DNA of 64,000 nucleotides from assembly GCA_029891345.1 (NCBI GenBank), contig CM056993.1, forward strand, positions 276,846,016-276,910,015. Reading direction: 5' to 3'. Of this stretch, positions 3,475-56,744 are shown in pieces. Position 1 is the first letter of the stretch; the number at the start of each line of letters is the position of its first letter. The stretch comes from Dryococelus australis (Eukaryota > Arthropoda > Insecta > Phasmatodea > Phasmatidae). The notes beneath the pieces are model-generated. The model ran no database searches and had not been told where the DNA came from. It saw only the letters and a list, made by a program, of their open reading frames with translations. The translations under genes and the position numbers were made by a program.

Positions 3475-3891
3475 TAAGCTTTTCACGGTAAAATGAGCAC
3501 CTTTTAAAGCCCTGCTTAAGATCTACTTGTATGCTCGTTGTGTATTCTTCCACTTAATGTAATATTAACATTGTCATGGGCCTCATAACTTTATTACTGC
3601 GTCGGTCAAGTGAAACTGTGAAATTATTAGAAAAGTAAATATTTAACAAATCTGCTCATTTGTACAATTTGATGCATATAAAAAAAAAACAGAAAGCGAA
3701 AGAAATAATTTAAGTTATGATAAGAAACACTTTTTATTCTTCGTTGAGGTACGGAACTGCTCCCCTTCCACCGTTACCAACTTTACTAAGCGCATGTCAC
3801 TCACAGTGCCAGTTAAAATATATGCAGGTAGGAGCAGTGACTTTTTTCTAAGGTTGATTTCAAAAGTGCTCACTTTATCGTGAACAGCCTT
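3475..3891 (+). mobile_element. Long TA-MITE, copy 2
   Basis: A 417-bp long-class copy beginning TAAGCTTTTCACGG and ending CAGCCTT. TA lies on the left (3473-3474) and AA on the right. The interior matches copy 1 throughout, including the CCTGCTTAAGATCTACTTGT block. Confidence 0.85.
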
Positions 3892-10739: not shown

Positions 10740-11162
10740 TGCGCATTCTCACGATAAAGTGAGCACTTTTGAAATCAACCTTAGAAAAAAGTCACTGCCC
10801 CTACCTGCATATATGTTAACGGGCGCCCTGAGAGACATGCGCTCAGTAAAGTTGGCAACGGTGGATGGGAAAGTAATTCTGTATCTTAACGTCGAATAAA
10901 AAGTGTTACGTAATCATTTCTGTTAATTTTAATTATTTCTTTCGCTTTCCCTTTTTTGAATGCATTGAAGCGTAAACATGGACAGATCTGTAAAATATTT
11001 ACTTTTCTAATAATTTCAGAGTTTCACTTGACCGACGCAAGAATAAACTGACGAGGTTCATGACAATGTTAATCTTACATAAGGCGGAAGAATACACAAT
11101 GTGCATGCAAGTACGTCTTAAGCAGGGCTTTCAAAAGTGCTCATTTTACCGTGAATAGCCTA
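10740..11162 (-). mobile_element. Long TA-MITE, copy 4
   Basis: A reverse-oriented long-class copy. Its right end is TAGCCTA followed by TA (11163-11164). The left terminus is eroded (CGCATTCTCACGATAAAG in place of GGCTGTTCACGATAAAG). The interior closely matches copy 3. Confidence 0.85.
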
Positions 11163-12417
11163 TACCTGAGAAAACTGCCATACTTCAACTTTCTCCTACG
11201 ACTCGGACCTCCTCCGGAATACACGTTCGACATACACTGTAAAAAAATTGTACAATTTTATACAAATGTGGCAGCAGAATCCCTACCGAAGTGGATGTAT
11301 TTTTGCACCTACAAAGGTGCATTTGTTTATTCTACGTCGAAGTAAATTTATTCAAAAAGTTAGTTAAATAACATTTAAACTGTATTGCTATTTATACATT
11401 GAATAGTTTCAATATACTGTTTCTATGCAGCAGAAAATAAACTGTAACTTTCCCTTTTTCCTCCGCGACAAAAATATTTACACAGACATCGCAATTGTAT
11501 TTTCACCACATTGTATGTATTTTTTTCACCAGTACGAAAGTAAAATCATAAATTCATCGTAATTGCAAATACACAATGTCTGTACTTTTTTCCCTCCTCA
11601 ACCAAGTAAATTTACACACACCATACAAGCATTATTTTACCTTCTCTGTCAACTCCTTTACAACTGTATCGTGCTAATCCTCCCAATTTGAATGTAATTT
11701 TATTATTTTTGTCTTATTCCAAAGTACTAAAAACTATCTTCAAAATCTGTGTAACAATTGACTTCAGATATATAATTCTTATATGCAAATAGCAAACTGA
11801 TTTTATCAGCAGAAGTTCAGTTTCTATGTGAACACACAAACGAAGTTCGAAGTAGTTCTACTCCCTACCACTGGAAGACATTCTATACAAGTAGGTACTT
11901 TTTCTTCGTAAATTACACATAAAACATGTAGGATTATCGAAAATACGTATTGTACAATTTAAAAGTATAGTACTTGAAATATTGTAATTTTGCACATTTT
12001 AAAAGATGTGTGATTGAAGTCTTGATGCTACTGTCAAGAAACCAATACATTAAATTGTTTGATACAAAAAGACTGGCAGTCGTCTTTGAATTCCTAGAAA
12101 CATTGGTGTTCCTTTTTGCAAACTGAATATTCAAATATGAAATTACCGAAAATTTGAAAGTGTAACTCTGCACTCACATACACTCCAGGACGTAACTGAA
12201 ATTCGTACGAATCATGATAAGCTAAAAGCCTTATTTGCGCTAAAAAAAAATACATGGATGCAACTTTTTAAAAAGAGTTCGGTATTTTATCAAGTTATCA
12301 CCGAAACCTTGTCACGAAACAACGTAGTGTCCTCAAAAATTGAAATAAAAATCTGCTCTTGAACTACCTTACTTGTAACGACCATCGAGCGACTACATTG
12401 TAAAAAAAAAACTGAGG
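11163..12417. other. Unassigned AT-rich sequence
   Basis: Strongly AT-rich, with no recognised gene or repeat family. Confidence 0.5.
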
Positions 12418-14032: not shown

Positions 14033-14736
14033 CTTGAAAACAATACGCCATGGAGTCCATTATCTTGGAGACTGACGGCTTCTGTTCAGCATACAGTCGC
14101 GTGTAGAGGCGACCATCTAAATTGTTAAACAAATATTTTTTTTAAGACTAATGGGAAATCTTAAATAAAAATTAGACCCAGCAAAACATTAATTCGAGTA
14201 GTGGCAAACCAAATACAAAAGGTTATTTCAAAGATTTAACTAGTTTTGTATGATATTTTTGTTGACCTACCGAAGGAGTTTGAATGGTTTAACTAAATAT
14301 TATGTTAAGTGGCATTAAAAACTCTTTCTTTTCCTTCGTGGTATTTTGTTTAGTTCACAATATCTTCGGTGACACAAATGGCTGTAGCTTATTGAAATAC
14401 TTCCCTGGTCCACACAAACATTTTTTTCGGTTCTATGATATGTACTTCAGTTTTCATTAAATGTACGAGATGTACAACATCAAGGAGGAGGTTTTCTGAA
14501 TCCACATCGTGTGTGTATGTGAGGACACGTAATATGTGCTTGGATCGTGGCCGGAATAAATGAGAGAGCAATTTCCGCCTCTCCTTTACGAAAGTTGTCA
14601 CTTAATTAGTAAACGCCAATTCCAAAGTATAATATTACTTCGGTATGCATATAAAACGATGGTCAAACCTATCAAAAGTACGCCACTGTAATTCTGCAGT
14701 ATCCCTGACAATCTCTATAAAATATACGTATTTGTA
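14033..14736. other. Unassigned AT-rich sequence
   Basis: Nothing recognised between the SINE and the next TA-MITE. Confidence 0.5.
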
Positions 14737-15156
14737 CAGGCTGTTCACGATAAATTGAGCACTTTTCAAAGCCCTACTTAAGATCTACTTGTATGCATAT
14801 TCTGTATTCTTACACCATATGTAAAATTAACATTGCCCTGGAGCTGATCACGTTATTCGTTCATCGGTCACGGAAAATAAAATAATTAGAAAAGTTAATA
14901 TTTTACAAATTTGCTAATCATTCATTACACCTATATACACTACAACTGAAAGCATAATAAATCATTTCAGTATTCCCAAATGTTTACCTAATACATTTAA
15001 TTCGACGTTAAGAGGTGGCGCTAATTTCCTTTCGTTGTTGCCAACTTTATTGTGGCGCATGTAGTCAGTTGTGCTCGTTAACATATGCGCATGCAGGGGC
15101 AGTGACATTTTTCAAAGGTTTATTTCAAAAGTGGTCAGTTAATCGTGAAAAGACTG
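14737..15156 (+). mobile_element. Long TA-MITE, copy 5
   Basis: A 420-bp copy beginning CAGGCTGTTCACGATAAA and ending AGACTG, with TA on both sides (14,735-14,736 and 15,157-15,158). The interior retains the CTTAAGATCTACTTGT block. Confidence 0.9.
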
Positions 15157-17430
15157 TAACGTCAGTTAAGGGCAGTGCTACATTATTTGTCATTCGTAGG
15201 CCTGTTTTTGATAGTCTTTAGCCGCACGGATAGCTGCCTCCCCCCTCCCCCTTCAACAGGAGATGTTTCGGGATATTGAGAAGATAGGAAGCAATAAGAA
15301 CAGCACTCTCGCCAACAAAATAACGCATTTTTGAGTACCGCATTTAAAACAGTATGTGCAGCCTACTTTAGATTGTAGCCTACAGAGGGCAAGCGAGTTG
15401 CAGAAAGACTGCATCGAAGACCAGCAGATTCATCCCCACACTTATTGAACGCATTTTGTGCTTTACATCATACAACAGTTTTAAAATACTGCTTTTTGGC
15501 TATTTGAGGCTGTTTAAAAATATAACATCAGATTTTTTTCCACCAAACCCTACACTATGTTTATTTTTATGTCAATAAATGTTTCAGTACCTTCCAAAAA
15601 CGTATACTGGTGACAAGATAAACAAAACGACATAGACCAAAATATAAACCGCAAAGAAATGTTGATATTACACACAAACAAAACTTGTAAAGTGATAAAC
15701 GAGTACTGTCCGGATTAACGTTACTATTCTGCCGATTCAAAGCAATGATTTCTGACTTCGTACCTGCAGGATCGTGGGGATGTCTTCTCGCCAAATGTTC
15801 GTCTTCAAGCAACACCAGCAAGAGTCGGCGGGAAAATGTCTTCCGTGAGGCGAGCAGTGTACGGCACTGCGAGGCGACTTCGTGTCGATAACGACAACAA
15901 AGGCTTGGAGGCACGTCAAACAAACAGCTCCAAGCGCAACACAGCAAATGTTGGCTGGCTTGCTTGCCTTGCGCGCGCTGTCGCCACTTCGCAGTACTGG
16001 CAAATCATCGCTGGCCTATCAAGTACATAAAGAAAATAGCGAAAAGAACTACTCGCAGTCTGTTACACGACGGCCTTTTGTTAGCGGAGTTGACGATCCG
16101 TCCAGAACAAGACGTGAATTTACGCAATGTGGGGACAGGAGTAATTTGCGATTTCACACAGTAATTTGTGATTTCACACCCTGACAGTAATTTACGTAAA
16201 CGCCAGACGGTGCACATAAATAAGTAGACACGTGATGGACTTCTTTTTTTGTGTTTAAACAAAGAAAATTACTGGCGTTGATTTTAGTCGGATACAGGAA
16301 ATATTATTTTAACTGCTTTAGTTAATAATTTTTTTTTACGCAAATGAAAATAAACTAGCATGCAGTTAGCCTCTAAACCAAAGCGATGGGTCGCTGCATA
16401 CGTCTTTCGCTTCTCATCCTAAAATACACTTGCAGCTTCTGTTTTTATTCTGCCAGTCTCCTTCCTTTCCACACTAGTCGCAGACTGGGTAAGAGAGTAT
16501 TCCCATTTACGTTTTAAGAATGGCAACTTGAATAAAAATGCATTCTGCTAATAGGGTCTACACGAACACCTTCTGTAAATGGTAACCAGAAAGTTAACCC
16601 TTTTACACTTACTTCACGTGTTGTAAATAAACTTTTGGATATGTGCTGTACTTTGACTGACAGAGCACTTTGTTTCGTTGTCAGAACCAATCTGCTGCAG
16701 GCTTTGTGTTTAGCTATAGTAATATGAACCACTCATAACCTAGACCGGTTTAAGAATGAATGGGTCATCTAGACAGACCTGTATGTGTGTAACACAATAA
16801 CTGTATTGCCAATATAGATTAGATTAGTACTCTAAATCCCCTCCCCCCTTACAACGCATAGTCTCAGGAGGTCATAATTTGTTTCTCGGCCTCTGTGGGG
16901 GAGAGCAGGTAAAGTGGTAAGTACGGATAAGTTGCCATCAGCTGTTACTTCGCTGGGAAGTGCTGCAGTCTAGTGGTGAAGATTTGAAACAGTTTAGAGG
17001 GAAACAATTAGTGTTTCGAGAACATCAAGGCTGGCTGTCTTGCCAGTTATTGGTTTTATCAAAGATTTTGTGGTTTTCGTTCAAGTCTAATGCAAGCTGT
17101 GATGAATACTGATCATTTTATCTCAGTATGAAGTAAGTTTATAATTATTTACTATAGTCCACATTAAAATACTGTCTTAGGCTTTATAACGATGTGTCAT
17201 TAAATGTAAGATATTAGTTTTTACACTAGTCAAGCTTTTGTGTAGTGGCGTCTAAGAGGGCAAAGTGGCCAGCCATCTACTTTGAACTAATGGGATGAAA
17301 CATTCGCCACTACTGACTACAATGATTGCAATTAGCAACGTGAGAGGTAATACTAAACATGAAAAGTAACGCTACGATACACCACCAACGGTTCTAGCAG
17401 ACAGTCGCAGGAAAAAGTAGCCATTTTGTA
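15157..17430. other. Unassigned sequence with one CpG-rich patch
   Basis: Mostly AT-rich. The patch at about 15,760-16,030 is richer in CG and open on both strands. A CTGCAG/GTACGA splice-donor-like site can be read on the minus strand near 15,767, but no protein family is recognised. A short tandem (GTAATTTGCGATTTCACAC-like, two units) lies at about 16,140-16,180. Confidence 0.4.
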
Positions 17431-32480: not shown

Positions 32481-32486
32481 ATCCCT

Positions 32487-33530
32487 AGTAGATGGAAAAG
32501 GGGGGTTCGTGAACCAGGATGCTGGATGCGGACACGTGGACACACGACCACCATCTTGAATGACATCACGAATTTGCCAATGCCAATTCGCCTATGCTAA
32601 TTCCAGCTATGCCAATGACGCCAATGCCTATTGCGATTATGTTAATATCTCACATGTCAATCACGCACACATCAATAACTCGCCGCAATCTACGTTCCCC
32701 TGGCACCCATTAGGGGCGCCACCAGCTTTGTTTCTCCCTTTGACCACCAGAGCGCAACACCACCACACACCCTTGCTTCCCCCACTGCCCGCCAGAGGAA
32801 TTGTTTCCATGTCATCTGCTACAACACAGCACCTTAACCGTCGTTCGGTTCCGCCATCTTCGCTTCCGAAGTCTGCCGCTAGGCGTAGTGCTGAAGGACG
32901 AAGTCCAGTGTGCAGTAGGTAGGATCCTCGCCCTTGCACAATTGCTATTCGGCGCAAGTAGAGCTCAAAGAATTCCGGAGGAACACGGGATCGTTCTGCA
33001 TATTAACCGCCATATTACTGTGACAGCTAGGAAAGGAGAATGGTGTATGTCAAATACATATATAGTTATTAGCATCCCGGGTATTCGAACAGGCCCTCCA
33101 TGTTATTTATAAAAGTCGCCATTGCATGGTTAGGAGAAGAAATAAATTAAATACTCGCATCGGCCTACGCACTCCCCAGATAATAAACTTGTCATCGCAA
33201 AAAAAGACGATGTTTATTGACGAATACACATAGGAAAAAACTGCAAGCACCATGCGCGTACACGCACATTTTTTATACGAGTAAAAGTTATACTGAAAAA
33301 ATTCCTTCACGGACCAGGATGTAGGATGCGAACCGGTCGCCTACGCTATTATACCATGCGTCAATCACAATATAAGAGCAAGAACAGAAATAAATAAATG
33401 TATTGAAATATTAGTCTTAAAGCTACCAACCTATGGTGAAATGGAATATATGCACGCAACATGCCGGCGCGGGGCGAAACAGAGCATATACTACCTCCCG
33501 CCTCTGCCTATCAGAGCGAAGCTGTCATGT
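32487..33530 (+). repeat. Left terminal inverted repeat of the Polinton-like element
   Basis: It pairs with 44,155-45,556 in reverse. Long blocks coincide, for example GCATCGGCCTACGCACTCCC, and around 33,130-33,195 about 61 of 64 bases agree. Subterminal sequence includes repeated TATGCTAATTC/TATGCCAATGA-like units. Confidence 0.9.
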
Positions 33531-35020
33531 TGCACACACTTGGGAAACAATTTCCTTTTCTGTAACAACTAGCTGAAAAGAATCTTGGCCCCTCTCCATC
33601 CTCCCTTCCGCATCATTCGGCTGATAATGAAGGATCGACCCTAATTCCTGCCTGACCATACAGTCTCACAGGTCATTTCAATAAAACATCTCAAGACGGC
33701 AATGAATATGTGGAGGCCTAAGAAACGACGTGAGAAAGGACTAACGCCGTCAGGATGGCAATGGATAAGTGGAGACTCACGAAACAACACAATAAAGGTC
33801 CGTCGCTGTAGTGGCCCTCCCCTCAAGAATTCCTGTGGAATGTACGTCGACCAATTCACAGCCACATATAAGTACCAGGCCGGCGACACACAGCGGGACA
33901 TACATAGAGGACTGCAATAGCGTCGTGCACTGTCTGTCGGCACACGAGCCTGCATCGTACGATGCCTGGTCAACAACTGATCGGGTGTACGATGTACGGC
34001 AAGTTTGTCGTGTTATACGTGTGGGAGGACACGCCACTGTCCTGCACGGAGGATTAAGTCCTTGCCGTCTCATGTCTGCGTGACACAGTGGCATTCCACG
34101 TGCCAGGCTATGTGGCGGCTGCAGCGGACCCAGCCTCGGTCCAGGAAACTGACCCACAGCCAGCAGCGGCAGCAGCAGTAGCAACGACCCCTGTCCACGA
34201 CGTCGACGACGGGGTACGCAGCTGCCGGCCGTCGTTTCCACGTGCGTGATATCATCAACACCAAGACGTGATAGAGCAGCGAATACTACGGTCTCGGACG
34301 TCGCCACATCGGCTGTGTCGATGGCGGTGCAGCGGAGACATCCCCGAGTCGCCCACAGACGTCGCAACGTCCATCACTGCTGCGGCGGCCATAGTTGTGC
34401 CAGTCGGTGATGGCAACGACCACACGCGGACCGTACACCCTACACGTGACCTGCCAGCAGCAGCAGCAGCTATTCCAGGCCTTGACACAATGCCTGCCTC
34501 CGAGGTTAAAAGAGTACCTGCGCCTACTTATGAACTGCCTGATCGATGCTGTCTAATATGTGATCCGTATGCTACGTAATGTTTTTTATTTCAAGTATAT
34601 GTGTAATCACACACACGCTCCATTATGTTTTAAAATTAATATAAGGTGTAGGTTGTCATTTCAGTATAAGTAGAAAGTGTGTGTGTGTGTGTGTGGAGAG
34701 AGAGGGAGAGAGAGAGACTATTTTTTTCTTCAAGTATATGTGTAATGTATTTCAACTGTCATGTTCGTAATTGCAGATATGTAGTGTGTGTTTGGTGCAT
34801 GAGATAGAGGCAGGCCCAATAAGTTTTCTGTACGTCGAGTATGCGTTTAAATGCATGTATTTCCAAGGACATCATGTCTGTACTGGTATATATATGTATT
34901 GGAGAGCAAGAGAGAGAGAGAGAGAGACAAACAGAGAGATAGAGAGAGAAAAAAAAGAGAGAGAAGCTGGTCTAACAAGTATTCTGTATGTTAACATTTT
35001 TTAAAAGTAAGTGAATGAAG
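33531..35020. other. Polinton interior, left, unassigned
   Basis: The part at about 33,680-34,560 is GC-rich and open in several frames on both strands but matches no Polinton gene I can recognise. Beyond it are GT/GA-rich simple repeats (34,677-34,719 and 34,901-34,967). Confidence 0.45.
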
Positions 35021-35230
35021 ATATTTGGGCGGCTCTTAACAACGAGGTCTTGAGATCCAATGAGGGCGATTGAAGTGAAAATAGAGCAGAGCCGGAATGA
35101 GGGGACAGGAGAAACGGGAGATCCCCGAGAAAACCCACCGAACAACGGCCTCGTCCGGCACGATTCCGGCTGGGGATTAAACCTGGTTCGCCTTGGTGGG
35201 AGGCGAGCGTGCTAATCGCTCAGCCACTGT
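35021..35230 (-). mobile_element. SINE family A, reverse copy inside the Polinton
   Basis: The 3' end (ATTTGGGCGGCTCTTAACAA) is on the left and the tRNA-like head, with the inverse B box region GGATTAAACCTGG, on the right. The last head bases are lost next to a GA repeat. It inserted after the Polinton. Confidence 0.85.
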
Positions 35231-35271
<41 letters not shown>

Positions 35272-36305
35272 TGTGTGTGTGTGTGGCTCGTTTAACAAAT
35301 GTTCTGTATGTCGCTATTTATGCAAGTATAGTATTAGTATATGTGTGTATGTAGCTATGTTTATTCAAGTATGTGTGTCAACGCACAAGTCTTTGTCGTT
35401 TCGTTTTAATTTGATTTAAAAGTATTTCCAAATATGTATGTGAGGCGAGGCGAGTCTCATATGTTGGTACATCAGTTTTGAATTTATTGCCATGAATATT
35501 TGATCTTCTGTCTTGCAACGATTTGTGTTTGTCTGTGTACGTGGAGAGAGCTACTGTATGTCGATCATTGCAGCAAAAAATAAATGCATATATATTTGTA
35601 ACCATATACAGTACGTTTTTTATTTTGTTACTTACCATTGATATTATAGTGGTAGCATATATATATATAATCACCTGTATAGTGAAGGTAACATACATAT
35701 TACTCATACAGCTGCTTGTTTTCCTTAAAAGTTCCCAGTACAGTAAAGGTAACATTATTCACTGTAGAGAGAGAGAGAGAGACTGTGTACATACACGAAA
35801 CACAAGTACCTTGAATGGTAACATATACATATAACATGTACGCTGGAGGCTGCAACCACTAAGTCTGTAGGGGGGGGGGAGAGAGAGAGAGAGAAGGTGG
35901 GTGTCATACAGGCTCCTTAAGTGTTATTCCGACGTTCGTGGGTGCGACTGTCTCCTCTGCACAAGTGGTGGGGAGGTGGAGCTCTCCCTCCCTCCATTCT
36001 GTGCGAGCATGCAATGTATAAAAGTGCCACCAACCTGTAGTCCGTCCACGTCCAAAGTTAATTGTGATCAGCCAGCTCGTTCTGGTGTAGCCTGTTTGTT
36101 TGCTGCCATACGCTGTCTTCACCTACGCACATCGTAATTGCCCATACTTCGCATCCAATGCTTGTGGCAAGTGTATCATTTGCATCTCTGTGCTAGTTTC
36201 CCGGCAGATTTAACACATGTATTTAATTTTGTTTGCTCATGAGTGTAATCGTCACTTGTTGTCTAGCTACATTAGCACGCGTGTATGTCTGTATGCTACT
36301 CGTTA
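35231..36305. other. Polinton interior with simple repeats
   Basis: GA and GT tracts at 35,232-35,284, 35,767-35,782 and 35,871-35,895. No coding region is recognised. Confidence 0.5.
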
Positions 36306-36540
36306 TAGGCCGTTCACGGTAAAGTGAGCACTTTTGAGGCCTTAGTTACTTTTTTCTTTCAGTCATCTTTTATCCTCTGACCACATTTATAAATAAATAT
36401 TGCCTTGTAAGTAATAAACAGTGTGCGTATATTCCACTGCACTCGGAAGTAATGTCTAAAGCTAAAATAAAATATATTTTTCGACCATTATTCCAAATGA
36501 GAGGGCTTTCAAAAGTGCTCACTTTACCGTGAACAGCCTT
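36306..36540 (+). mobile_element. Short TA-MITE, copy 4, inside the Polinton
   Basis: The best-preserved short copy, 235 bp. It starts TAGGCCGTTCACGGTAAAG, ends CAGCCTT, and has perfect TA flanks (36,304-36,305 and 36,541-36,542). Confidence 0.92.
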
Positions 36541-37137
36541 TACCTACTTGCACAAGCCGGTCATTGGGCGCCGACAGACAGGCGGGGAGGACCCTGCAGT
36601 CAATGGGCGAGCGTGCACACAGACGGGAAGCCGCGAGTGCGTGTACATAGGGGAGGGAGATGGCCACGACCATGCATTCTGCTAGTGAGGGCGTGCCATT
36701 CGCTGGTCTCTGTTGGGGTGGGGGACGAATTATGTCAATGAATCCCGCTGGCGGTGGCCTTCCCAGGCCCTTCTATAGGTGGGGGGACCTGTATAGTCAT
36801 GCCCCCTTTGCAGACAGGGCCGTGGAGGTGAGGGCCTACAAAATAGAAACAAAATGCACCATCCCGTCATAACTTAATGCTCCCTCATGGGTCGACGGCA
36901 GATTCCTATCTATTTACAGAACTTTTTTAATGTATGTTGTTACCATGGCACAGCACAGTTAATGCAGCACACACACTCTGTAACGTACCTAACTGCTACT
37001 AACATTATTCATATTAGGGGGACGCACGAGTGGCAGTGTTGGTGATTGAAGTTAGATATTTCACTAAGAACAAAAAAATTTATGTACACCCAGGCTGCAT
37101 ATATATGCCATTACACACACAAACACGCGCGTGCACA

Positions 37138-37172
<35 letters not shown>

Positions 37173-37609
37173 GCTGTACTAGGCCAGAGGGCTGCATTCA
37201 TATGGTGTCTGAGACTATGCAGTACGAGGTAGGGATGGACTGTGAGCACACAGAGTGAAACCTGCCGAAGTTTCTCCCATACAGCTTTCCCTTCAAATAG
37301 CATGGTATAGTTCAAGTAGTAGTATGGACGTTAGGTGATTAATTTATGCCCCTTGTGTGTGGGAGGGTATTCGATCGATCAGTATGGCTTGCTCTTGTGT
37401 GTGCAGACCCATGAGTGTTTGCAGCTGGAAATGACAGTGCATGTCTAGTGGCTACATGTAGCTCCCTGCAGTGCAGGGTAGGGATGATGCTGTGATGGAA
37501 TGGAATGGCATACAGGGAGCACCTCGTGTGGACCTTTTTTTTCATTTGCACGTTACCTATATTGTGTTGGGGTACTCGATCGATACATCTTGTGGGTGCA
37601 TTATGCTAG
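36541..37609. other. Polinton interior, unassigned
   Basis: A GC-rich patch lies at 36,550-36,800 and a (CA)n tract at about 37,111-37,170. No recognised gene. Confidence 0.5.
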
Positions 37610-40600
37610 ATGTGCGGCATGGAAACATCGTGTTTTCAGGCTAACTTAGTGGTATGCATTTTTCCCATTCCCTCCTGGTCGTCCGGCATCGAGTGGTCCT
37701 TAGCACATTCTGTCAGACTGGCCAGTCGAGACATCCTTCGTTGTTGGGTTTCCTCCATTTCTTCTTCTACAGCCTATGTGGATTCATGCCGTTATTCAAT
37801 TCCATCTTTCCCTTATTTTACATCAGATTCGCAGTCATCATCCATTTCTTCTTTGTCTTCCACATCACAGCCATCTCCATTACCTAACACACCTATGATG
37901 CGGACACCTGAACTGCAGTGTGGGTTCTGTGATTGGCTGTTTACCGATCATCGCAATGGCTTGCACCATGATCATAATTGTGGGTTCAACCCTCTCAGGG
38001 CCATGCTTCTCATGTGCGAGAGGTGCAGGGCATCATTTGCCCACACAGATGACATGCACAGACATCTAACCACATGTACTGGTGTTATCCAGTGGCCTGA
38101 AAAAACTCATTGCGCATTTTGCAACCAAAGTTTCACTCACACTGGGAATGCAATGCAAGGCGATATGAACATGGCTACTGGATGAACACTGATGCTGAAA
38201 CCCTGGAATGTGACAAGAGTGGAGACAATTCACTAAATATAACAGTTTGAGAGCACACAGTGTCAAATGCAATGGTTCCACTGCTCCTCCAGCAAAGCAT
38301 CAGTGTACTGATACTGCCTCCCCCCCCCCCCCCACACACACACACAGCTCGACCATTTAATTCCTGCCCGCCTCATTGCAGCAGATGGCAGGTCTTGTCG
38401 CAGAGTGCAGAGTAGCCATCGGTGCTGGTAAGGCCAATGCCTATGGCTTTGTGCAGGCGGAGAATGCCTTTCGAGGTACAATTGTAACATACATGTTCGA
38501 GAATACCTCGAGCGAGGCAACATATATTTGCAGCTACCTGGAGAACACGAAAGAGAGTATTATCAGTCAGCTGGAGAATGAAATCGACGACAGAGGTGCA
38601 GTTAAATTTAATATATTTCTTGAATTTCTGTATGGCAAGCGAACCCCATGACAGCAAACCGTACCCCTCTACAATGTTTTAGACACTGAGGCCAGTGTTG
38701 AGGCAAGTATACGGAAGGTCTGTCAGGAGGAAGACGAGTATATGGGGAAGAGAAGTAGCTGAACCCTCACCTATGTGGAATGTCTTCAACTCAGAATCAA
38801 TATGCTGGACCCACTGAGAGCCTCGTCGTACATCGATTTACTAACCAGCATAAATGCCAGAGAAGCCATCATTAATCCTCAGAACAACGATTATCGATGC
38901 TTCATGTGGGCGATCCTGTCAAGGTTCATGGAAGCCTTGCACCCTGAATGCATCGACCAGCAGTATTATGCTCTTGAGGTATGATTCGATTTCAATGGGT
39001 TAGAGTTTCTCACTCCTCTGTGCCAAATACTGCTGTTCGAGAGAAACAATTCAGGGATCAGCATAAACGTATATGCTCTCGACGAAAATAACAAGGTGGT
39101 TCCTATATGCATGTCGAAGCACGAACTGGCCCAGCACTTCGACTTCCTCCTAATGATAATGTAAAACAAGTACTCACATTATTACTACATAAAACATTTA
39201 TCCTGCCTGATACATTCGCAGGTAACATCACACAGAGAGATGGTGCACATCTGCAAGCAATGTCTCAAGAGGTACGATAATCGACCTCGAGCGATGGGGC
39301 TTACAGGTGCCGAGACATTGGCCATGCACAAGAGGTACTGTAACAAGCACATGCCAGTCTGTACCTATATACCTCATCCAGAGACCAACAACAAGCCTCC
39401 TGGGCTCAAGGTTGCCAACTACCAGAATGCCAACAAAGAACATATAGAGGTTTATGCTGACTTTGATGCTGTTAGTCCCGGTACAGTTGTGCATGCCAAA
39501 CCCAGATATCTCATATATGTACAGGTATCAAAAACATGAATAGTACAGTTATGGTATTTACATCAAAATAGATGATAGTATGAATTCTGCCTCAAAGACA
39601 TCCCAACGTCATCATGGCGTTGGTATATATCGAGGGGAAGATGATGCACAGAAGTTAACAGAAGAGATTGTTCACATTGGCAATCAGGTGAAAGATATTT
39701 ACACTCAGTCTGAGCCTATGATAGAGCTAACAAGTGATGAGAAGATCGCCTATTCTCTAGCCAGTGCCTGCTGCTACTGTTTCAGTACCTTCACTCAAGT
39801 GAACTGTAAAGTGCCTGATCACTACCATTTTACCGGCAACTACATTGGGGCAGCATGTAATAATTGTAACATGCTTTGTTGTCTCCCCAAGAGATTGCCT
39901 ATATTCTTCCACAATCTTACCTACAACAGAAACTTTATAATTAAGCAGCTGGGCTATGATACACAGGAAACATACATTATCCTGCACACTGACGAGAAAC
40001 ATATCACCTTCAGTAAATGTGTAAGCGACACATTCACCTTACAGTTTATCGACACGTTTAGATTAATGTCTACCAGCCTCACAATGCTCTTACAGAACCT
40101 GCCATCATCTGAGTTCAAGGTCATTGCACAGTTCTTCACTCCAATAAGCTCGAGTTGGTGAACAGGAAGGGTCTTTCCCTATGATTATGTGGACTGTCTG
40201 GCAAAACTTGACGAGACACAGCTACTGCCCATTGAGGATTTCTATAACCACCTCATTGACAGCAACATCAGTCTCTACGACTGTCAGGATGCTCAGATGG
40301 TATGTAAGAGGTTTAACTGTCGTAAATTAGGAAACTACAGTGACCTCTACCTCAAGATAGATGTACTGCTGTTGTGCGACGTGTTTGAGAACTTCTGAGC
40401 ACTGTGCCTGTCGTGTATAGACTAGACTGTGTCCGGTATGTGAGTGTCCCCAGATTCTCATTCTATGTCATGCTTAAGAAGATAAATATAGAACTTAAGT
40501 TTATTAGTGGCTACTATGTACATTTATTAATCGAGGGTGGTATCCAGGGAGAGGTTACTCAATCCATAGAGGCATTTAAATTCCTAACAATAAGGATGGG

Positions 40601-41800
40601 CCTCCAGTATGTAGATGCCAATAATTTGAATGGTTGGGCTATGTAACTGACTGCCTTACTCTGGCTTCTAGCGGACTGGCACAGATATCGACATCATGAC
40701 CATGTCCGACACTAATAATGTGGGATACATACTGGAGGTGGATGTTGGATACCCTGCCAAACTCCACGAGACTCACAAGGGCCTCCTGTTCCTGGCTGTG
40801 GACGAGTACCCTCCTGGATCCAAACAAACTAAACTCATCACCATGCTTGAACCTAAATCCAATAACATCATACATTATATTACCTTAAAGCAGGTGATTG
40901 GTCATGAGTTATGGCTCACAAAAATACATCGAATACTGCAGTTCAATCAGAAGGCAAGACTGCAGCCCTACATAGCACTGAATATGTAGATGCACAAGAC
41001 AGCCACAAACGAGTTCGAAAAAGACTTTTATAAACACACGAATAAAGCTACGTCCGGGAAACTCATGGGAAACAAGAGGAAGCATCAATGTATGGAACTC
41101 ATGTGCATGGAATGACATGCCAAGATAATTATTGCTGAGCCCTCATATAAATGTCGAATTCTATTCAATAAAACACTATCTCTTTTAAACTGGATCATGA
41201 AAATATCCTTCTCCATAAACCTATTTATGTGGAATTTGCAGTACTCGACCAGTCAAAAACCCTCATGTACAGGTTTCATTACAATGTCATGCAACCTAGG
41301 TGTGATAGAAGCCAGAGTTGATCTACATGGACATGGATTCCTTTGTAGAACAGATAGGGACAGACTATTTCTACATGGATCTTGCCTCAGACACAACACG
41401 CATGTCTGAGTTCTACACGAGCAACAACTCACCAACCTATCTGTGTTATTCACCCACCAACAAAAAGGTGATTGGTAAATCTAAGGATGAGTATGGTGGG
41501 GATGATATGATCGAGTTTGTTTAACTGATGGCCAAGCTCTACACGTACCAGTGCACTAGCAAGGTGTTTAACTGGTCAAGGGAATCCAAAAATGCATAGT
41601 TAACAATCATATGACATTTGAAGATTATAACAATGTACTGATGAACCAGCAGGTAATGAGTAATTGTGAATAATATTCAGTCACACAATCATGTTGTTTA
41701 TAGTCAATGTTCCAACAAATTTTGTGGATGGACAACAAACACAAGATCCTGGACAATGGCATTCAAACCATTGGTTATGGTTATGGTTATCATGGATGGA
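37610..41800 (+). pseudogene. Protein-primed family B DNA polymerase of the Polinton-like element (fossil)
   Basis: The region encodes, in order, a serine/proline-rich stretch, C2H2/CCHC-like fingers (CERCRASFAHTDDMHRHL), the NDYRCFMWAILS block seen before the exonuclease domain of these polymerases, a CKQCL finger, exonuclease-like sequence with FHNLTYNRNFI and FIDTFRLMS, then polymerase-domain sequence with VGYILEVDVGYP and LTKIHRILQFNQ, and finally a DNGIQTIGYG end block. Such polymerases replicate Polintons and adintovirus-like elements using a terminal protein as primer. The frame is broken about ten or more times. A host replicative polymerase is unlikely because the layout and finger-rich N-terminus are of the viral/Polinton type. 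Confidence 0.85.
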
Positions 41801-41896
41801 TCCTTATGGTTATCATGGATGATGTTGTTCTGTATATGTAAGTACTTCTGGGACACACATGTATCATCACATATGTGTCTGTCCCCAGGAGAGCAT

Positions 41897-43184
41897 CAGG
41901 GGTCGGGATGCATAGTAAGAGGTCAAGGATGGTGCCAGTTATTTCGCTGCCCTGTGCAAAATTCTAATTGCCACCCCGCCCCCTAACTTTTCTTTTTCGC
42001 GAAATAGAATTCAATCCCCGTAATTGGAAAATATAAAATCTAAGCACACAACTACAATTATTATTAGCCCTAACATACAGTAGTAGTAGTATGTAACATA
42101 TTATTTTACCTACAGTATTGATTGTTTCTGCTGTAAGCTCTTTATTTAAAGTAAGCCTACTAACTACTTAGTCTTGAAGAACACAATAAACATTTTTTCC
42201 AAAAATAAAACCAATGGTATCATCAAGAATCAAAAGTTGTGTATTACAAGTTATGACAGATGACATTAAAATCTTGCAATAGAGGCCTACCATAATTTAT
42301 CCCTTTAGCTAATTGAAAAATGCTTAAAATAATGTTTCCACCATGTTACAAATGATAGAAATAGGAAGTAGCATTGGTTGATTAAAAATAAAGAAACAAT
42401 TAAAACATGTTAAACTCTACTTTATTTCAATTGTCATACTTAAAACTTTGAAAATTATTCTTACTGTTTTTATATGGCTCATAACAAAAAGCATTTAAAA
42501 AAAGTTATTTTGATAAAAATGAATATTACAAAAAAATCATTGACTAGTTATAGTTGCTTCAAATTCTTCAAAAAAGACTCTTAAATAATATATTTAACAT
42601 ATTTTATAAAACAACAACAAACAAAAATATTTTGTAACTATCATAGTTTTAATGACACATTTACCTTTGCTTTAATAGCAGCAAAGTATTTTACTAAATC
42701 AGAATAGTTTAACTTTTCACCCAGTTTGTGTTCAATTGAAATTTTTGCCAAATCATTTAGCAGTGTTTCATACATCATAAATCTTAAGTAGATCTTGATT
42801 AATTTGAGCTTTGAGAAACTGTGTTCTCCACTAGCTAGTGCGATTGGGAGAGTCAATAATATTCTGAGTGCAACTGAGACATTTGGTGCAAAATCATTTA
42901 CCAATGTATATTTTAATACTTCCATCAACGTTGACATATCTTATATAACTTTACATAGCACTTTCGGTATATCTGTAAGTTTGTTACGACAGGGTAAAGA
43001 GTAATAATTGTGTTGTTTAAAACTTAATGTCTTAGAGAAATTCGCAGTAAGACATACGGTAAACAGTGGATTTTCGTTTCGATTTTTATTTTTATTTCCC
43101 CCGTCGATTTCCCGCCATGCCACTCCCTTTGGCCTGCTACCTTGTACACTTGCACGGATTGCACCCCTGGTCTCGCCGACCCTG
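41897..43184 (-). mobile_element. Internally deleted hAT transposon inside the Polinton
   Basis: The ends are CAGGGGTCGGGATG (41,897) and, in reverse, CAGGGTCGGCGAGACC (ending 43,184). Subterminal CTGCCCTGTGCAAAATTCTA resembles ends of hAT elements of the ZMYM-like group. Only the C-terminal transposase remains between them. At about 1.3 kb most of the gene is gone. A clean 8-bp target duplication was not found, so the exact left end could be some 27 bases further right. Confidence 0.7.
42641..42937 (-). pseudogene. hAT transposase, C-terminal dimerisation domain
   Basis: An open frame of 98 codons reads FAPNVSVALRILLTLPIALA, then SGEHSFSKLKLIKIYLRFMM and LNDLAKISIEHKL. This is the hAT dimerisation domain, in which SGE-SFSKLK and L-LAxISIEH are diagnostic. 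It ends at a stop at 42,641. A full hAT transposase has about 600-800 residues, so this is the last one-seventh or so. There are no stops inside the piece, which suggests a later arrival than the Polinton polymerase around it. Its closest known relatives are the zinc-finger MYM-type-like transposases. Confidence 0.88.
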
Positions 43185-43288
43185 TAGTTCGTCGCCCAGT
43201 GCTTGTCGAAGCTGAAGCGCCTCCACTTTCCGCTCCCACAACGAGTGATGTGTGCGATGATTTATTCCTCTTATGTTTTTTTTCCGGC

Positions 43289-43650
43289 AGCATACTATAG
43301 CTCATGCAAGAGCCATATTCATATTGCCAGGTATATGTTGACAATGGATGGTGGCGTTCTGTAGCCCGTGCAAGAGGTATCTTTATCTTGTCAGGTATGA
43401 AACCAATATGTCCTGCTGTGTGTACTATTTCTGCAATCACTCGAGTACGTATATGTGCATTGTTCCAATTACGTGCTTTCTTCCAGTAGCATTCTGTAGC
43501 ACATGCAAGAGTCCTATTCGTCTTGCCAGGAGTGTTGGTGTTGATGGATGATGATGCTGTTGAATGGTGGCATGCTGTAACCCGTGCAAGAGGTATACTT
43601 ATCTTGCCAGGCATGCTACCTATATGTCGTGATGTTTGTACTATTTAACA
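43289..43650. repeat. Nested tandem repeat in the Polinton interior
   Basis: Four units of about 48 bp (core CGTGCAAGAGGTATA-TTATCTTGCCAGG) start near 43,289, 43,353, 43,488 and 43,569. Units 1-2 and 3-4, with their spacers, form a higher-order dimer of about 160-200 bp. After units 2 and 4 the trailing sequence also matches (ATATGTC-TG-TGT-TGTACTATTT). Confidence 0.85.
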
Positions 43651-44154
43651 TTCCACCGTAACTCATGCACATACTTATGAACTGGATTTGTTATCTATAT
43701 TGGGTCTCAGACCTGGGATTTATAGCCACTTCTTGGGGGACTCAAAGATTATCCTAGCGAGGGTTGTGAATATGAAATGGGATTTTTTGTATTACACTAG
43801 CACTGCAGTAACTGGAGTCGAATAGTACTTGCATTTACTCTTTACTTCAGCATTGCCCCCCTTTCTCTCTTCCTCTACCTCTACTGCACTCTTTTTCTGT
43901 GGCTGTCATCTTTCTGTGCATTCCTTAGTCCGCTTTTAATTTTTTTTGGTGGAAGTTTTTCCTTTCTGACGACTCATAAGCCACCTACCTGTACACTATT
44001 CTTACGACAGTACTGGGGTTTTTCACTATGCAGTCATGCTCACATGTTTGCATAACGAATCATCCTGGTTGTGTTTGGTGGTGTAGTGTACAGCCCTGGT
44101 CACAAGTCCGGGAGCCGTGCACATGCCCATGGCCATGCAGATGGTGAAGTGTGG
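43651..44154. other. Polinton interior, right, unassigned
   Basis: AT- and pyrimidine-rich sequence with no recognised gene. Confidence 0.5.
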
Positions 44155-45556
44155 GGGCGAGTGATATGCAGTGGCAGGAGGTAGTATATACTGTTTCGCC
44201 CTGTGCTGGCATGTTGCGTGTGTATACACAGTTTCATCATAGGTTGGCGACTTTAACACTAATTTTTAATATGGTCATTTATTTCTATTTTTGCTTTTAT
44301 AGCATGACTGACACGTGATATATTAGGATTCGCGACCAGTCTGCAACCTGCAGCCTGGTCTGTGAAGGAACTATTTCAATATAACTTTTACTTGTACAAA
44401 ATGTGTAAGCAAGCACATGTGTGGTGCCTGCAATTTTTTCCTATGTGTATTCATTATTAAACATCCTGTTTATCGCGATAACAAGTTTATTATCTGGGGA
44501 GTGTGTAGGCCGATGCGAGTATTTACTTTATTTCTTCTCCAAACTATGCAATGGCAATTTTTATATATAATGTCGGGGGCCTGTCCGAATATCCAGGATG
44601 GTAATACCTATATTCCAGATTCAACATACTCTTCCCCAAGATGTCACAGTGGTGAGACTGTCAAGATGCTAGACTGCCAACCCAATAGGTGCCGGAAGGA
44701 TCCCTGGTCCTCCAGCATTTTTGAGCACTGAATAGCAGATGAGTATGGGCGAGGGTCACGCCTACTGCACACCAGACTTCGTCCTTAAAGCAGATTCCCA
44801 CCTGTCATCTTGGATTTATGGAATTGTTGCGATACTATGGAAATACAGTTTTCTATCTTGTTTTTTTGGAATGATAAAACACAGAGCATTGCCTAGTGCA
44901 TTGCCTGAAGTCAGTCTTTCTTGATTACTGCTAATATCGTCATGTTTGTAATCATTCACAGGAAATAATCTCTCATGTTTCGCCTCCACAGTTACCAGCT
45001 AAAAATTAATAAATGTAGTGAAGTTGTGGCAGTTTAATTACGTTTGGGACACTGTTATTTAGGATATGTCATGCGGGAAATTTCAATACACCTTCTGAAA
45101 TAGAAGTTTTAGTGGAAAATCGATAAATCCAAGATAGTGGGTGGGAACCTGCCTTAAGCGCTGCGCCTAGCGGTATACTTCAGAAGTGAAGATGGTGGAA
45201 CCAGACGACAGCGAAGGTGCTGCGCTCTAGCAGACGATGTGGAGACAACGATGTCTCTGGCGGGTGGTAGGGGAAGTGTGGGTGTGTGGTTGGTGGTGCG
45301 CTCTGGTGGTGAATGGGAGAAGTGAAGCTGGCGAAACCCCTGATGGGCGTAGCGAGAAACATAGATGGCAGCAGCGGGTGATTGATGTGCGCGTGATTGA
45401 CGTGTAAGATATTAGCATATTCGCGATTAGCATTGGCATCATTAGCATAGCTAGAATTAGCATAAGCAAATTCGTGACATCAACCAAGATAGCGGTCGTG
45501 TGTCCACGTGTCCACATCCAGCATCCTGGTTCCCGAATCACCCTTTTCCATATACT
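44155..45556 (-). repeat. Right terminal inverted repeat of the Polinton-like element
   Basis: The inverse of 32,487-33,530. It is longer than the left arm because of the 365-bp MITE at 44,789-45,153. Without that insert the two arms are nearly equal in length. Confidence 0.9.
44789..45153. mobile_element. TTAA MITE inside the right Polinton arm
   Basis: TTAA flanks both sides (44,785-44,788 and 45,154-45,157). The ends AGCAGATTCCCACC and, in reverse, GGCAGGTTCCCACC continue as inverted repeats through TATCTTGGATTTAT. The left Polinton arm near 32,895 reads GCTGAAGGACGAAG with no insert, so it shows the empty site with a single T(G/T)AA. The element is 365 bp, non-coding and piggyBac-like by target choice. 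Confidence 0.93.
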
Positions 45557-45562
45557 ATCGAT

Positions 45563-47030: not shown

Positions 47031-47182
47031 AAGTCTTTTAAGTTCTTTGAGAGTAACAGAGTAAATCCCCTTGCTAAAAATATCGTAATTAAACTTATTT
47101 TCTAAAAATTTATAAAAATGTTTTTACACTGTAAATTATTTTGACGGTGTATCACTACTTAAAAGTTTTAACTTTGGTGAAA

Positions 47183-50100
47183 ATGGGTGAGCATAAGCGA
47201 TCCTGTATTGACATCTTGGTTGAAGATCTTTATGCACGCAATTCCGATTCGGAATCGCAGACGGAAAGACAAACAATCTGTCAAGACAGTGTCCCTTCGC
47301 CTAAGCGGACACGAGTTAATCTATTGGAGGACAATCTCTACTTAAGCGATTCGAGCACAAATTCGAATACAGAGAGATTGTCAAAACCAAAAGGTCAAAA
47401 TGTGTCCACCCCCCCAAACATGAGAAGGTTGTTCTTTTGAATGACGACTTATTTCTATCAGTCTTGGAATATTCTTGTGATTCAGAAAGTGCTGCAACCG
47501 TTTTACAACCGACTTTCATCTCGATTAGCTATTTCGCCACAAGAGCCAGAAAATAATTCCTTTTCCGATTCCCAAGCCTCAGTGAAAGCTTTGCCAGACC
47601 TGATGTACCAACTATTGGCTATAGTGTTCATGGGAAGACTAAATGATGTGCGGATACTTAATGATCAATTAGAGTCTAATGCAGATTTTTCACATTTTTT
47701 CTAGAGGTGTAAAGTCACTTTATTAAGCTTAATTATGGCATCATCCCAGCTACTTAGATTATCCATTTCTGTAATGGGGAAAGTACTTGAAATCCCCATG
47801 GCGGAAGAAGGCACTGCGGAGACTTTTTATTTTGAAAGCAAAGCACTCCTTGTCCTCCATTCATCTGATGTGGGTTTAATCTATGATGATATCATTCCTT
47901 ATCTCACTAACAGAGTTGAAGAGTTTAGTGTGTGTGGTTCTGGCTGGAGTCTGCAAATGTTGACGTACATGGACATCCATGTGACTCAATATCGGCCGTT
48001 CACTGTCGGTGCTGCACACACAAAACTGTCCATGTTTATTGCTAACAGGAAGGCTTGTGTCGATGTAGACTGCCCAGAGGGAATGTGTTTTCACTATACC
48101 GTCATAGCATGTGTGTTTACAGCCAAACAACATGTTTATAGAACTACTTCATATCCAAAACCTCTCCAGGTTTTGAATATCGATGGTCTGTCGACACCTG
48201 TACTCATTCAGGATATTCGCAAGTTTGAGGAGAACAATTCTATTCGTACCTATGTCTACTGTGTGGTAGACAAAGATAGCAATATAATTGACGAAACTTT
48301 CGAAAAGGGTGGGTTGTAGTACCCATGTGTATTTATGCTGTACAACATGACAAACATGTTAATATTTTGGCACTTCATGCGAGTGGAAATGTCGCTCATT
48401 TGCATCTTGTTTGTATTAGAAATTTATCAAAGCTGGTTGGTAGTCACCTGAGTAAGAAGTGTAAAAAACACATTTGCAAGCATTGTCTCCAGTACTTTTT
48501 TAGTGAGGGAAATTCGTTAATCCCACTATTCTTTGCCAGCAAAAAAGGGCTGTTTGAAGTACTTTCCCCACTGAAAATGACAAGAACTTGGAAATTAAAG
48601 ATTACAGCAAACAGCAGAGATTGTGTTTCGTCGCCTATTGCAACATAGAAAGTTGCCTGAAACCCATGTCCACTTGCTTGCCTAATGATGAAACAAGTAA
48701 TACAAATACCATCAACCAACATGTTCCATATACTTGTAGCATTTTGTTGGTCTGCTAATACATTCCAAGTTTATCTCAGTATTTCGAGTTTGTGGGTGCT
48801 GATTGTATGTAAAAATTAGCTGATAAATTAGTTAAACTTACAAAGTGGATTGCAGGAATTTACAGTGTTCCGATAAAGCCAAAAACCCCTGCTAATGAAA
48901 CTAGGTTGGCGGCTCAAAAAAGTTGTTACATTTGTAAAGAACTGCTATGTACAGATGATATTGTGGTCGGCCGTGACTATCTGACGAGCGAAATCAGAGG
49001 CAGCGCACATAATAAGTGCAACTTGAATTTCAGACTACCCAAAAGACAACTTGTTGCTGTTTTCCATAACCTGCAGAATTACGATGCTCACTTTCTCATA
49101 AAGCCTGTGGCTGAACGTCACATAACGTTATACAGCGGAACCATGGTAATTGAAAATCCTGGAAAAATTCAAGTGATTGGAATGACCCTTGAAAAATACG
49201 AATGTATCACAAAACAGATTCCCAATGGGACTGATTGCAATGGAAAGGCACAATATTTAAAGTTAAGATTTATTGATTCATTCCAATTCATGAGTGCCTC
49301 TCTGGAAAATTTGGCACATAATTTACTACCTGCGAAAATGAGTATAAACCGCTCGATGTTTCTAGACAACAACCAGTTCAAATTGGCAAAATGGGAGTTT
49401 TTCCTTATGACTTTGTTAAGTCGCCACACAGTCTGATGTGCAAGTCACTCCCACCAAAGGACGCATTTCATAATGTGATGAGAGGTGAAGGCATTAGCAA
49501 TGAGGATTACGCACATGCCCAAGCTGCATGGGATGTGTTCAACTACATTAACTTGTTGCAATATGCAATTCATTACCTACGTGCGGACACTTGTTTGCTG
49601 GCTGATGTTTTTGAGAATTTCAGAACCATATGTTTGGCTTATTACGGTCTTGACCCCACCATGTATGTCACAGCTCTGTCTCTTTCATGGGACGCTTTAT
49701 TGTCAATGACACACACATGGTTAGAGCTGTTGAATGATCCTGACATGTATCTTTTTGTAGAATGTGGGGTTAGGGGTGGAATTACCCAGGTTTAAAATAG
49801 ACATGTGGAAGCCAACAATATTTACATGGGCGAGGACTATGACCCCAGTGTGGCATCGAAATATATATGCTATTTCGACATCAACGGGCTGTACAGTCAT
49901 ACAATGTGGTCGAAGCTTCCGATTGGTAATTTCGAGTGGGTTGAGGCTGACGTGTTCTCTTCATGTGATTTCGCAATCATGGTGAATGATGGTGACACTT
50001 GTTTTTTTCGCAGAAGTTGATCTGTCTTTTCTGGAGGAGTGTTATGATAAACTATCTGATCTGCCTTTGGCCCCAGAAAATGGCATACTCCCAAACAGTT

Positions 50101-51090
50101 TGCATGAGAAACTTCTTTTAACACTCACACCGTGCAAGAAGTATGCTATACACAGGTAAACACTGATGCAGTGCTTTATGTACGGGGCCAAACTTGACTC
50201 TGTTCATCGCATTTTGCACTTTGAGCAGAAGGCATGGGTGGCTCCATACATCGAGTTTAACATTGAGTAACGTGCCCAGGCTGCGAACGCATTCGAAAAA
50301 TCGTTTTTCAAGTTGATGAATAATTCTGTTTATGGAAAAACATTGCAAAATGTCCGTCGAGAAAGGGACATTAGAGTCGTTTCGAGGTATGACACAATAT
50401 ATGGGGCTTTAGAGCTGATATGAAATCCGACATTCCAGGTGCGGCAGATTATTCTATGAAAACTTGGTCCTTATCGAGATGTCAAAGAGTTCTGTTGCAT
50501 TCAACAAACCTTTGTACACTGGTTTTGTCATTCTCGACCTTTCAAAATCAACTCTCTATGAATTTCACTATCAGTACATGTGTACAAAATTTCTTCCGCC
50601 GGCTTTGCACCTCCTCTATTGTGACACCGATTCCCTAATCTATTCTGTTGCTTGTGATGCCATATATAAAGTAATTACCCTAGATTTAAAGGCCCAGTTT
50701 GATATAGCCAACTACGTGCCAACACGTACTGGTGTGATAACAGATGAATGTGCTGGGCGCATAATCACACACTTTGTGAGTTTATGTCCTAAGCTTTATG
50801 CTTACGTTGTTGCGAATGAGCAATGTATTCGTAAGGCAAAGTGTGTAAAACCCAACGTGTTGCAATCACTCAGGTACGAGGATTATCGAGATTGCCTCGA
50901 AAATTGCACAAGGGTAATACGGACCCAATATCAGTTCCGTTCATGTGCTCATCAAGTCTACACCGAACGCATAACAAAGGTAGTGTTGTCAGGTATGCAT
51001 GATAAGTGCTACACTGAGGCAGATGGAATATCAACCTTACCTTGGGGGCACTATCGAATACCTGAGTTTTTTTTTTTTTTTTAATTTTCC
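47183..51090 (+). pseudogene. Second fossil protein-primed family B DNA polymerase
   Basis: The N-terminal part is acidic and serine-rich with a repeated motif (VEDLYARNSDSES, LEDNLYLSDSSTNS). An N-terminal domain typical of these polymerases follows, then the finger CKHCLQYF, exonuclease-like sequence with FHNLQNYDAHFLI and FIDSFQFMS, VECGVRGGITQV, YFDINGLYSHTMW, the catalytic YCDTDSLIY, and a C-terminal LPWGHY block, ending at a T-run near 51,066. This is the protein-primed type carried by Polintons and related virus-like elements. It clearly differs in sequence from the polymerase at 37.6-41.8 kb. It is broken about ten times. No inverted repeats bracket it, so the limits and family of the parent element are open. 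Confidence 0.85.
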
Positions 51091-54787: not shown

Positions 54788-55203
54788 TAGGCTGTTCACG
54801 GTAAAATGAACACTTTTGAAAGCCCTGCTTGTATGTACGTTGTGTAATCCTCCGTCTTATGAAAAATTAACATTGCTATGGGCCTCATTACTTCATTCAC
54901 GCGTCGGTCAAATGAAACTGTGAGATTATTAAGAAAGTAAATATTTTACAACTCTGCTTTATTTTACACTTCGATGGATTAAAAAACAGAAGTGAAATGA
55001 GAAATGAATAATTTGAAGTTATCACAAATGGTTACCTAACACTTTTTATTCGACATTAAGCTATGGAACTACATCCCATCCATCGTTACCAACTTCACTG
55101 GGCGAATGTCACTCAGTGCGGCCGTTAATATAGATGCATGCAGGGGCAGTGACATTTTTCTAAGGTTCATCTCTAAAGTGCTCACTTGATCGTAAACAGC
55201 CTT
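54788..55203 (+). mobile_element. Long TA-MITE, copy 6
   Basis: A 416-bp copy from TAGGCTGTTCACGGTAAAA to CAGCCTT, with TG on the left (decayed TA) and TA on the right (55,204-55,205). Confidence 0.9.
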
Positions 55204-55205
55204 TA

Positions 55206-56744
55206 CTTAGGTATTTTTGCAAGGAAAACCATAATGATGTATAGCATTGCGTATCAATGTTGATAACATGCAACCTTTAATGTTCCGAAACATCTGATGT
55301 AATAAATGTTTGCAGAGATTTCGTACCGCATATTTCTTCTGGAATGCAACGTGGCGTTTCCCAATTGATGCAATCCGGTTACAGCGTCATCTACAATGAA
55401 TTGCAAAAACTGTTTCTAATACATCTTCCGTACATACTGACGTATATTCCTAACCTGTAATGAAACAAGAAGGTTCCTGTTTGATATTTCAACGTTACCC
55501 TTTCCTTCCCCCTTTTCCCGATAGGACGACGGTGAGAAAACTTTAGCAACCTTGGAATGCCCCCTCGAAAATAGTGACGTTTTTCTTCGACGCGTATTGT
55601 CGCACGACGCATCTATTTCGCGTTATTCCGTGATCTCAGGTTTAATGAATCATCTGGTATGTAGTTATTTTCAGCAGAGGAGAAATTCGTTCCGCGACAC
55701 AGGATATCATGTTAAACAGAAACAGAAGCAACACCTTCAAAACTTCAGAAAACAATTATACACATTATCACAATACATCTCTGAGAACAAAAATAAAAGT
55801 TTTGGCGTCCATTTACTCTCCGTTTTAGGGTGACCTGGTGCTCCATAAAAATAAAGAATAATTGGGGGGGGGGGAGGTAAGTATGCCTTACCTCCCCCTC
55901 CCCGTGTTGTCATGCCACTGTTTCCAATAAACGTCAAAAGCCTGCAAAATGCTAAAAAAAATTTTACTCGCTGCTGGAGTCGCAGATGTATTGTGGTCCT
56001 GTGCTCATGGGTACCACAGAAAAAAAATCGATTGTGATGTCTGTAGGACAGCTGAAGAATGCAAGATTAAATCAATATCTAATTTATTATGATTTTTCGT
56101 TCGTACGTTCGCAGACCAACAAAATTTGTCTCACGAGGACCCAATCTAGGTAAATATTTTACCAATTGAAGCAGAAAACCTTTCCTTAGAGCAGCAACAC
56201 AAATTACGTGCCACACATCCGGGGAGTGAGGGGAGGGGGGAGCGAATAACTTCGCACGTTTCGTGTAAGGAAGAATGGAAGGGAGCTAGGCCACAGAACA
56301 GTAAGTATAAAGAAGCGAATTGGCTTGGCGATTTCTTTCAAATAAGCATACTCGGTCGCTGATTGACGCCGCGAGACTCTCTAAACAGGCCTTGCATTTG
56401 ATAGGATATATAGCGCATGCTGTCAATAATTTCGTATTGGATGTGCTGTTTAGGCGGTTATTCCGAGATCACGTCCGAACTTGATCTAAGATCGCCACAG
56501 ACTACTGTTGCACCATTCGAGTTAGTTCAGATCATGACTGGAGATCGAGACGAACATAATTTCCAACCGCCTAATATAGTGGTTCAAAGACATTATCTAA
56601 GATTAGTGTACAAAAGAAATATTAAATATATTTATCTACCAGTATTTTCTTAAAAATATAAAACAATATTATTATTAAGAGAGATTTTCCTCAATACAGA
56701 GGTTTTTCTCCAACATAACAATAAACTCATTTTGGAGCCAGGTA
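55206..56744. other. Unassigned sequence
   Basis: An open frame of 93 codons on the plus strand (55,552-55,833) has no recognised domain. A G-run lies near 55,865. Otherwise AT-rich. Confidence 0.45.

Follow-up and report, generated by a model that had tools for sequence, protein, structure and literature searches.

What is the 13-kb segment at positions 32487-45556 of a 64-kb stretch of Dryococelus australis DNA (contig CM056993.1; the whole stretch is called the window here), in which two long inverted arms face each other across a broken gene for DNA polymerase B (PolB)? We conclude that it is very probably the decayed remains of a Polinton (Maverick) element, inserted once and long ago and carrying an internal deletion. 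This agrees with the original prediction, which had called the segment a Polinton-like fossil from its arms, its ends and its polymerase; all three were found, and arms and PolB recur together elsewhere in the host genome. The window copy is not functional now and appears to be an unremarkable copy from a very large family in that genome. The coordinates of its features are collected in Table 1.

Self-comparison of the window revealed 10 inverted blocks without gaps, 31-145 nt long and 76-87% complementary, pairing 32481-33513 with 44162-45562, as expected from the earlier description of oppositely oriented arms with long matching blocks. When the left arm was aligned with the inverse of the right one, a check that had been proposed with that description, the two were 76-82% identical; two gapped alignments were obtained, one of 420 columns at 77% identity (327 bits, E 4e-93) and one of 646 columns at 74% (410 bits, E 5e-118). 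Chance similarity is ruled out, as the left arm compared with 200 letter-shuffled right arms reached a maximum of 28.3 bits. In the whole genome, the best match of the left arm after itself is the right arm of the window. The left arm has 1,027 bases and the right arm 1,395, that is, 1,030 plus a TTAA-bounded insertion of 365 bases with 42-nt inverted ends (81% alike), which we take to be of the piggyBac type. The right arm is longer than the left because of this insertion, which accounts for the excess and rules out a right arm that is longer by design. The divergence of the arms had been called patchy, and rightly so, for identity is 82% in the outer arm block and 76% in the inner one. The corresponding Kimura two-parameter distances between the arms are 0.22 (outer) and 0.29 (inner) and the insertion is therefore old, as had also been claimed. 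Distances from the window arms to the arm of a related copy (the C3 copy) are larger, 0.23-0.25 in the outer block and 0.39-0.40 in the inner.

Termini and flank junctions were read on both sides (ATCCCT/AGTAGATGGAAAAG at the left and CTTTTCCATATACT/ATCGAT at the right), so that the predicted limits hold exactly: raw sequence sufficed to place both limits of a 13-kb virus-like fossil with single-base precision. The outer ends read AGTAGATGG at the left arm start and AGTATATGG at the other, the right arm finishing with CCATATACT; the arms thus open with AGTAGA and AGTATA, which bears out the AG-starting termini of the prediction. Ends of other copies were searched with a fuzzy copy of the window end (up to 3 edits) in the 3' flanks of 7 PolB loci and in 17 arm loci, which correspond to 16 places because L025 and L027 overlap; those of L045 and of the window were read directly. 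Many fuzzy matches are due to chance; ends were accepted according to their position and the bases that come after them. Twelve were accepted (window left, window right, C3, L045, L039, L041, L014, L021, L022, L024, L028 and L029), coming, for the searched loci, from 2 of the 7 PolB flanks and 7 of the 16 arm places. An AGT-type start is present in 11 of the 12, in a search whose pattern itself favours AGT, and L014, L022 and L028 start with AGTAGT. A tRNA target was rejected, as no tRNA was found in the window. In a search for an empty site by way of repeats, the 284 bases adjoining the right arm on its outer side matched nothing but themselves, and a dispersed repeat lies beyond them.

Concerning the interior, the polymerase gene predicted between the arms is present in broken form, running left to right with its stop-free pieces spread over all three forward frames. 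Of 10 stop-free pieces that were scanned, one gave a match to PF03175, with E 2.5e-4 and a score of 20.5 bits that stays under the Pfam cut-off of 25.8. Relatives above this cut-off matched the window pieces at 40-79% amino acid identity; the identification as PolB rests more on these relatives than on the match of the window piece itself. A solved-structure search with the PolB piece gave 4 matches, none of them credible (best E 0.13). The zinc-finger-like frame that precedes the polymerase is kept in L032, L045, L046 and L054. The left arm stops at 33513, and the first recognisable family DNA after it, from about 33796, is the 3' part of a gene that we call gene X (23 and 30 residues at 57-60% with its counterpart in L032, E 6e-7 and 3e-8); the genes that lie to the left of it in relatives are therefore missing here. 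The prediction that recognisable integrase and capsid genes have been lost is consistent with our searches, as neither was detected. No retroviral-like integrase was found by Pfam in 44 interior pieces (10 + 3 + 1 + 30; not all open frames inside), and a genome-wide integrase search was not made. Neither capsid nor ATPase was recognised in the element: open frames of L061, a locus described below, gave no window match at E 1e-6, and its ATPase and capsid pieces none even at 1e-4, although these queries were short pieces of a single locus that diverged remnants could escape. The hAT dimerisation piece was the only one of the 44 to match a Pfam family above cut-off, and it was rejected as a component of the element since the stretch that contains it is missing from five other copies. 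A viral-contig pattern matched 4 stretches, none of which was confirmed.

We looked for relatives of the window copy in the host assembly (3.415 Gb, 646 contigs). The window PolB DNA gave at least 59 matches, the best 40 of 719 candidates being scored, and PolB is present at 37 or more other loci, with single matches at 67-93% identity. The C3 copy matches the left arm at 73-82% and is collinear with the window PolB at 75-77%; between its left arm and gene X (L031, L032:112-489) there are open frames that, judged by eye, resemble a reverse transcriptase and a piggyBac-type transposase. The 3' flanks of seven further PolB loci were all collinear with the end of the window PolB and at least part of the spacer. 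Six of the seven matched the window arms in the expected orientation (L038 only by patches of 38-61 bases and L044 only by the inner arm), and the flank of L041 matched only arms of other loci. Arm-like DNA was thus found at 7 of the 8 PolB loci with a 3' flank read, the eighth being the C3 copy. In a copy at C2:118 Mb, a left arm lies 2.2 kb ahead of the zinc-finger region. A genome search with the left arm, which the original prediction had suggested for finding other copies, gave at least 47 matches (best 40 of 857 candidates scored), first the right arm and then many weaker places, most of them by arm positions 517-817 alone. Arms do recur beside PolB, in line with the prediction, and arm-like DNA also occurs at many other places.

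The polymerase is tied to a double jelly-roll (DJR) capsid gene and an A32-type ATPase gene, far above chance, by gene X, which in the C3 copy lies upstream of PolB (L032:3169-3663). Gene X was matched at least 151 times in the genome, and 150 of the places were used for pairing. The DJR capsid model PF21738 scored over cut-off at 126 of 126 scored places, from 18,148 first-look candidates, and in none of 14 control genomes; the ATPase model PF04665 was found at 41 places. Pairs within 25 kb were counted in the top-ranked lists, and expected counts assume an even spread. Gene X and PolB formed 9 pairs against 0.18 expected, eight on the same strand with gene X 1.2-7.1 kb upstream and the ninth on opposite strands 20 kb apart. 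Gene X and capsid formed 6 pairs against 0.28 expected, all on the same strand with the capsid 1.7-6.6 kb upstream, and gene X and ATPase formed 2 pairs against 0.09, on opposite strands about 5 kb apart. Arm with gene X and arm with PolB gave one pair each, both of them the C3 copy; capsid and ATPase gave none. Locus L061 brings together, within 7.9 kb, gene X, an ATPase that passes its cut-off and a DJR-like piece that stays under its own (20.6 bits against 27). These pairs, rather than any single locus, suggest the composite order ATPase (-), capsid (+), gene X (+), zinc finger and PolB (+), right arm. The scored capsid places and first-look candidates point to a very large Polinton-type population in the host genome, which would help to date bursts and to study the origin of polymerase-only copies.

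As to gene X itself, occurrences were seen at L032:2319-4657, L055:109-1053, L056, L058 and L061:6999-7524. Its product is cysteine-rich, with domains that seem to occur as two or three repeats, and a small conserved frame precedes it. It showed no Pfam match above cut-off and no match to a solved structure.

Several observations weigh against the Polinton interpretation. As had been stated, 4 of 6 positions are the same in the flanks ATCCCT and ATCGAT, a weak match on its own for a candidate target duplication, since 4.7% of random 6-mer pairs drawn from the window outside the element agree as well. The C3 copy has no right arm within the approximately 7 kb read beyond its PolB region, and neither of the 8-kb flanks read around a more distant PolB relative (C1:151.7 Mb) matched an arm. 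Both arm-only loci examined (L033-L036), read 20 kb inwards, lack any Polinton gene by the queries used, and solo or gutted arms therefore exist; arms spread over the genome without a polymerase, named in the original prediction as evidence against it, were thus observed in part. Integrase was shown in no copy, the genome-wide search for it not having been made. In the top-ranked lists there were no pairs within 25 kb of PolB with capsid, PolB with ATPase, arm with capsid or arm with ATPase, and none of the loci read was an arm-bounded copy carrying capsid genes. L062, upstream of gene X and PolB at C3:237.59 Mb, has gene X and no capsid piece, and the ATPase model is not specific, as it also matched in 2 of the 14 control genomes.

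The element resembles the Mavericks of vertebrates in its long inverted repeats, its AGT-type ends, its PolB and its size, the vertebrate elements being 12.7-24.6 kb long with repeats of 46-1,447 bp and most often (AGT)2 ends (PMC8097293). The link of its family to DJR capsid and ATPase genes is a further likeness. Unlike them, the window copy has no detected integrase, capsid, ATPase or protease, its family carries gene X between capsid and PolB, and its PolB is directed at the arm nearest to it, the right one; the two gene modules of most vertebrate Mavericks face the centre instead (PMC8097293). Polintons are copied by protein priming from their ends and joined to the host by an integrase with 6-base duplications (PMC8097293). 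A literature search found no paper devoted to the Polintons of a cockroach genome, which does not exclude that one exists.

Under the Polinton interpretation, the intact ancestor would have been a linear DNA copied by protein priming at its arm ends, as suggested by family biology, and would have been joined to host DNA by an integrase leaving 6-base duplications. A deletion, before or after insertion, would have removed the whole stretch that began just inside the left arm and reached almost to the 3' end of gene X; later decay would have brought point changes, frameshifts and nested insertions.

An alternative history, to which we give a low probability, is that the deletion predates the insertion and that the window copy belongs to a capsid-less Polinton subfamily, whose short form (arms, gene X remnant, zinc finger and PolB) was mobile with integrase and capsid from full-length relatives. 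No capsid or ATPase piece lies between left arm and PolB in the three copies with both read (window, C3 and C2:118 Mb), and L046 and L062 have no capsid piece upstream of gene X. However, the left interiors differ, the C3 copy having all of gene X, the C2:118-Mb copy none and the window its 3' part, which fits separate deletions, and diverged remnants could be missed by short capsid and ATPase queries from L061 alone. It is similarly doubtful that the genome has a whole lineage of capsid-less Polintons that retained arms and polymerase and spread as satellites of full-length relatives, with gene X, immediately downstream of the capsid gene, as a so far undescribed protein of the virion or of entry in arthropod Polintons. 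Gene X and the possible capsid-less subfamily are leads. It is very unlikely that the arms of two different Polintons face each other by accident across a PolB fragment: arm-like DNA is dispersed, solo arms exist and 1.6 kb beyond the right arm there is a second PolB, but the window arms are mutual best matches, the C3 arm being more distant from both, and other copies repeat the order of PolB, spacer and right arm. Least probable of all is a bidnavirus-like or other PolB-bearing element. In its favour, PolB and arms alone are recognisable in the window, and Bidnaviridae likewise combine a Polinton-derived PolB with terminal repeats and arthropod hosts (PMC4061559). Bidnaviruses, however, have a parvovirus-derived capsid protein and helicase, whereas the window family has AGT ends and is linked to DJR capsid and A32-type ATPase genes, and no parvovirus-type family was found among the Pfam-scanned window pieces, although no search was aimed at a parvovirus-type capsid or helicase.

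Table 1. Features of the Polinton copy and its surroundings (window positions)
Feature	Position	Strand	Basis or remark
Left flank ATCCCT, candidate target duplication	32481-32486		4/6 agreement with right flank
Left arm, starts AGTAGATGG	32487-33513	+	Self-comparison, gapped alignment, end reading
Remnant, 3' part of gene X	33796-34250	+	Match to L032; collinear with L046:5164-5375
Left interior	34041-37438	+	No protein family found; collinear blocks common with C4 copy (L046), in pieces
Zinc-finger-like frame immediately 5' of polymerase	37601-38300	+	Weak zinc-finger matches, all under cut-off
Broken PolB gene	38361-41920	+	PF03175 on one piece; collinear with C3 copy
Later insertion	41921-43185		Missing in C3, L039, L041, L042, L043
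hAT dimerisation piece	42644-42940	-	PF05699, E 4.9e-7, above cut-off
Spacer, polymerase to right arm	43186-44161		Common to relatives
Right arm, ends CCATATACT	44162-45556	-	Self-comparison, gapped alignment, end reading
Insertion inside right arm, inverted ends, TTAA at both edges	44785-45157		Self-comparison
Right flank ATCGAT, candidate target duplication	45557-45562		4/6 agreement with left flank
Second broken PolB, other lineage, outside right arm	47162-51081	+	

Self-comparison also located dispersed repeats in the left interior, at about 34996-35167 and 36303-36549. The second broken PolB matched PF03175 in 3 of 7 pieces, below cut-off, and is 37-80% identical to L001, L002, L004 and L007. 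Its 5' part (from about 47162) was found at no fewer than 39 other places at 85-88% nucleotide identity, the best 40 of 3,271 candidates being scored; its family is therefore more recent and more abundant. Finally, a dispersed repeat of about 400 bases is present in at least six copies, 70-83% alike, at 883-1301, 3473-3891, 9471-9878, 10746-11167, 14734-15158 and 54788-55219.

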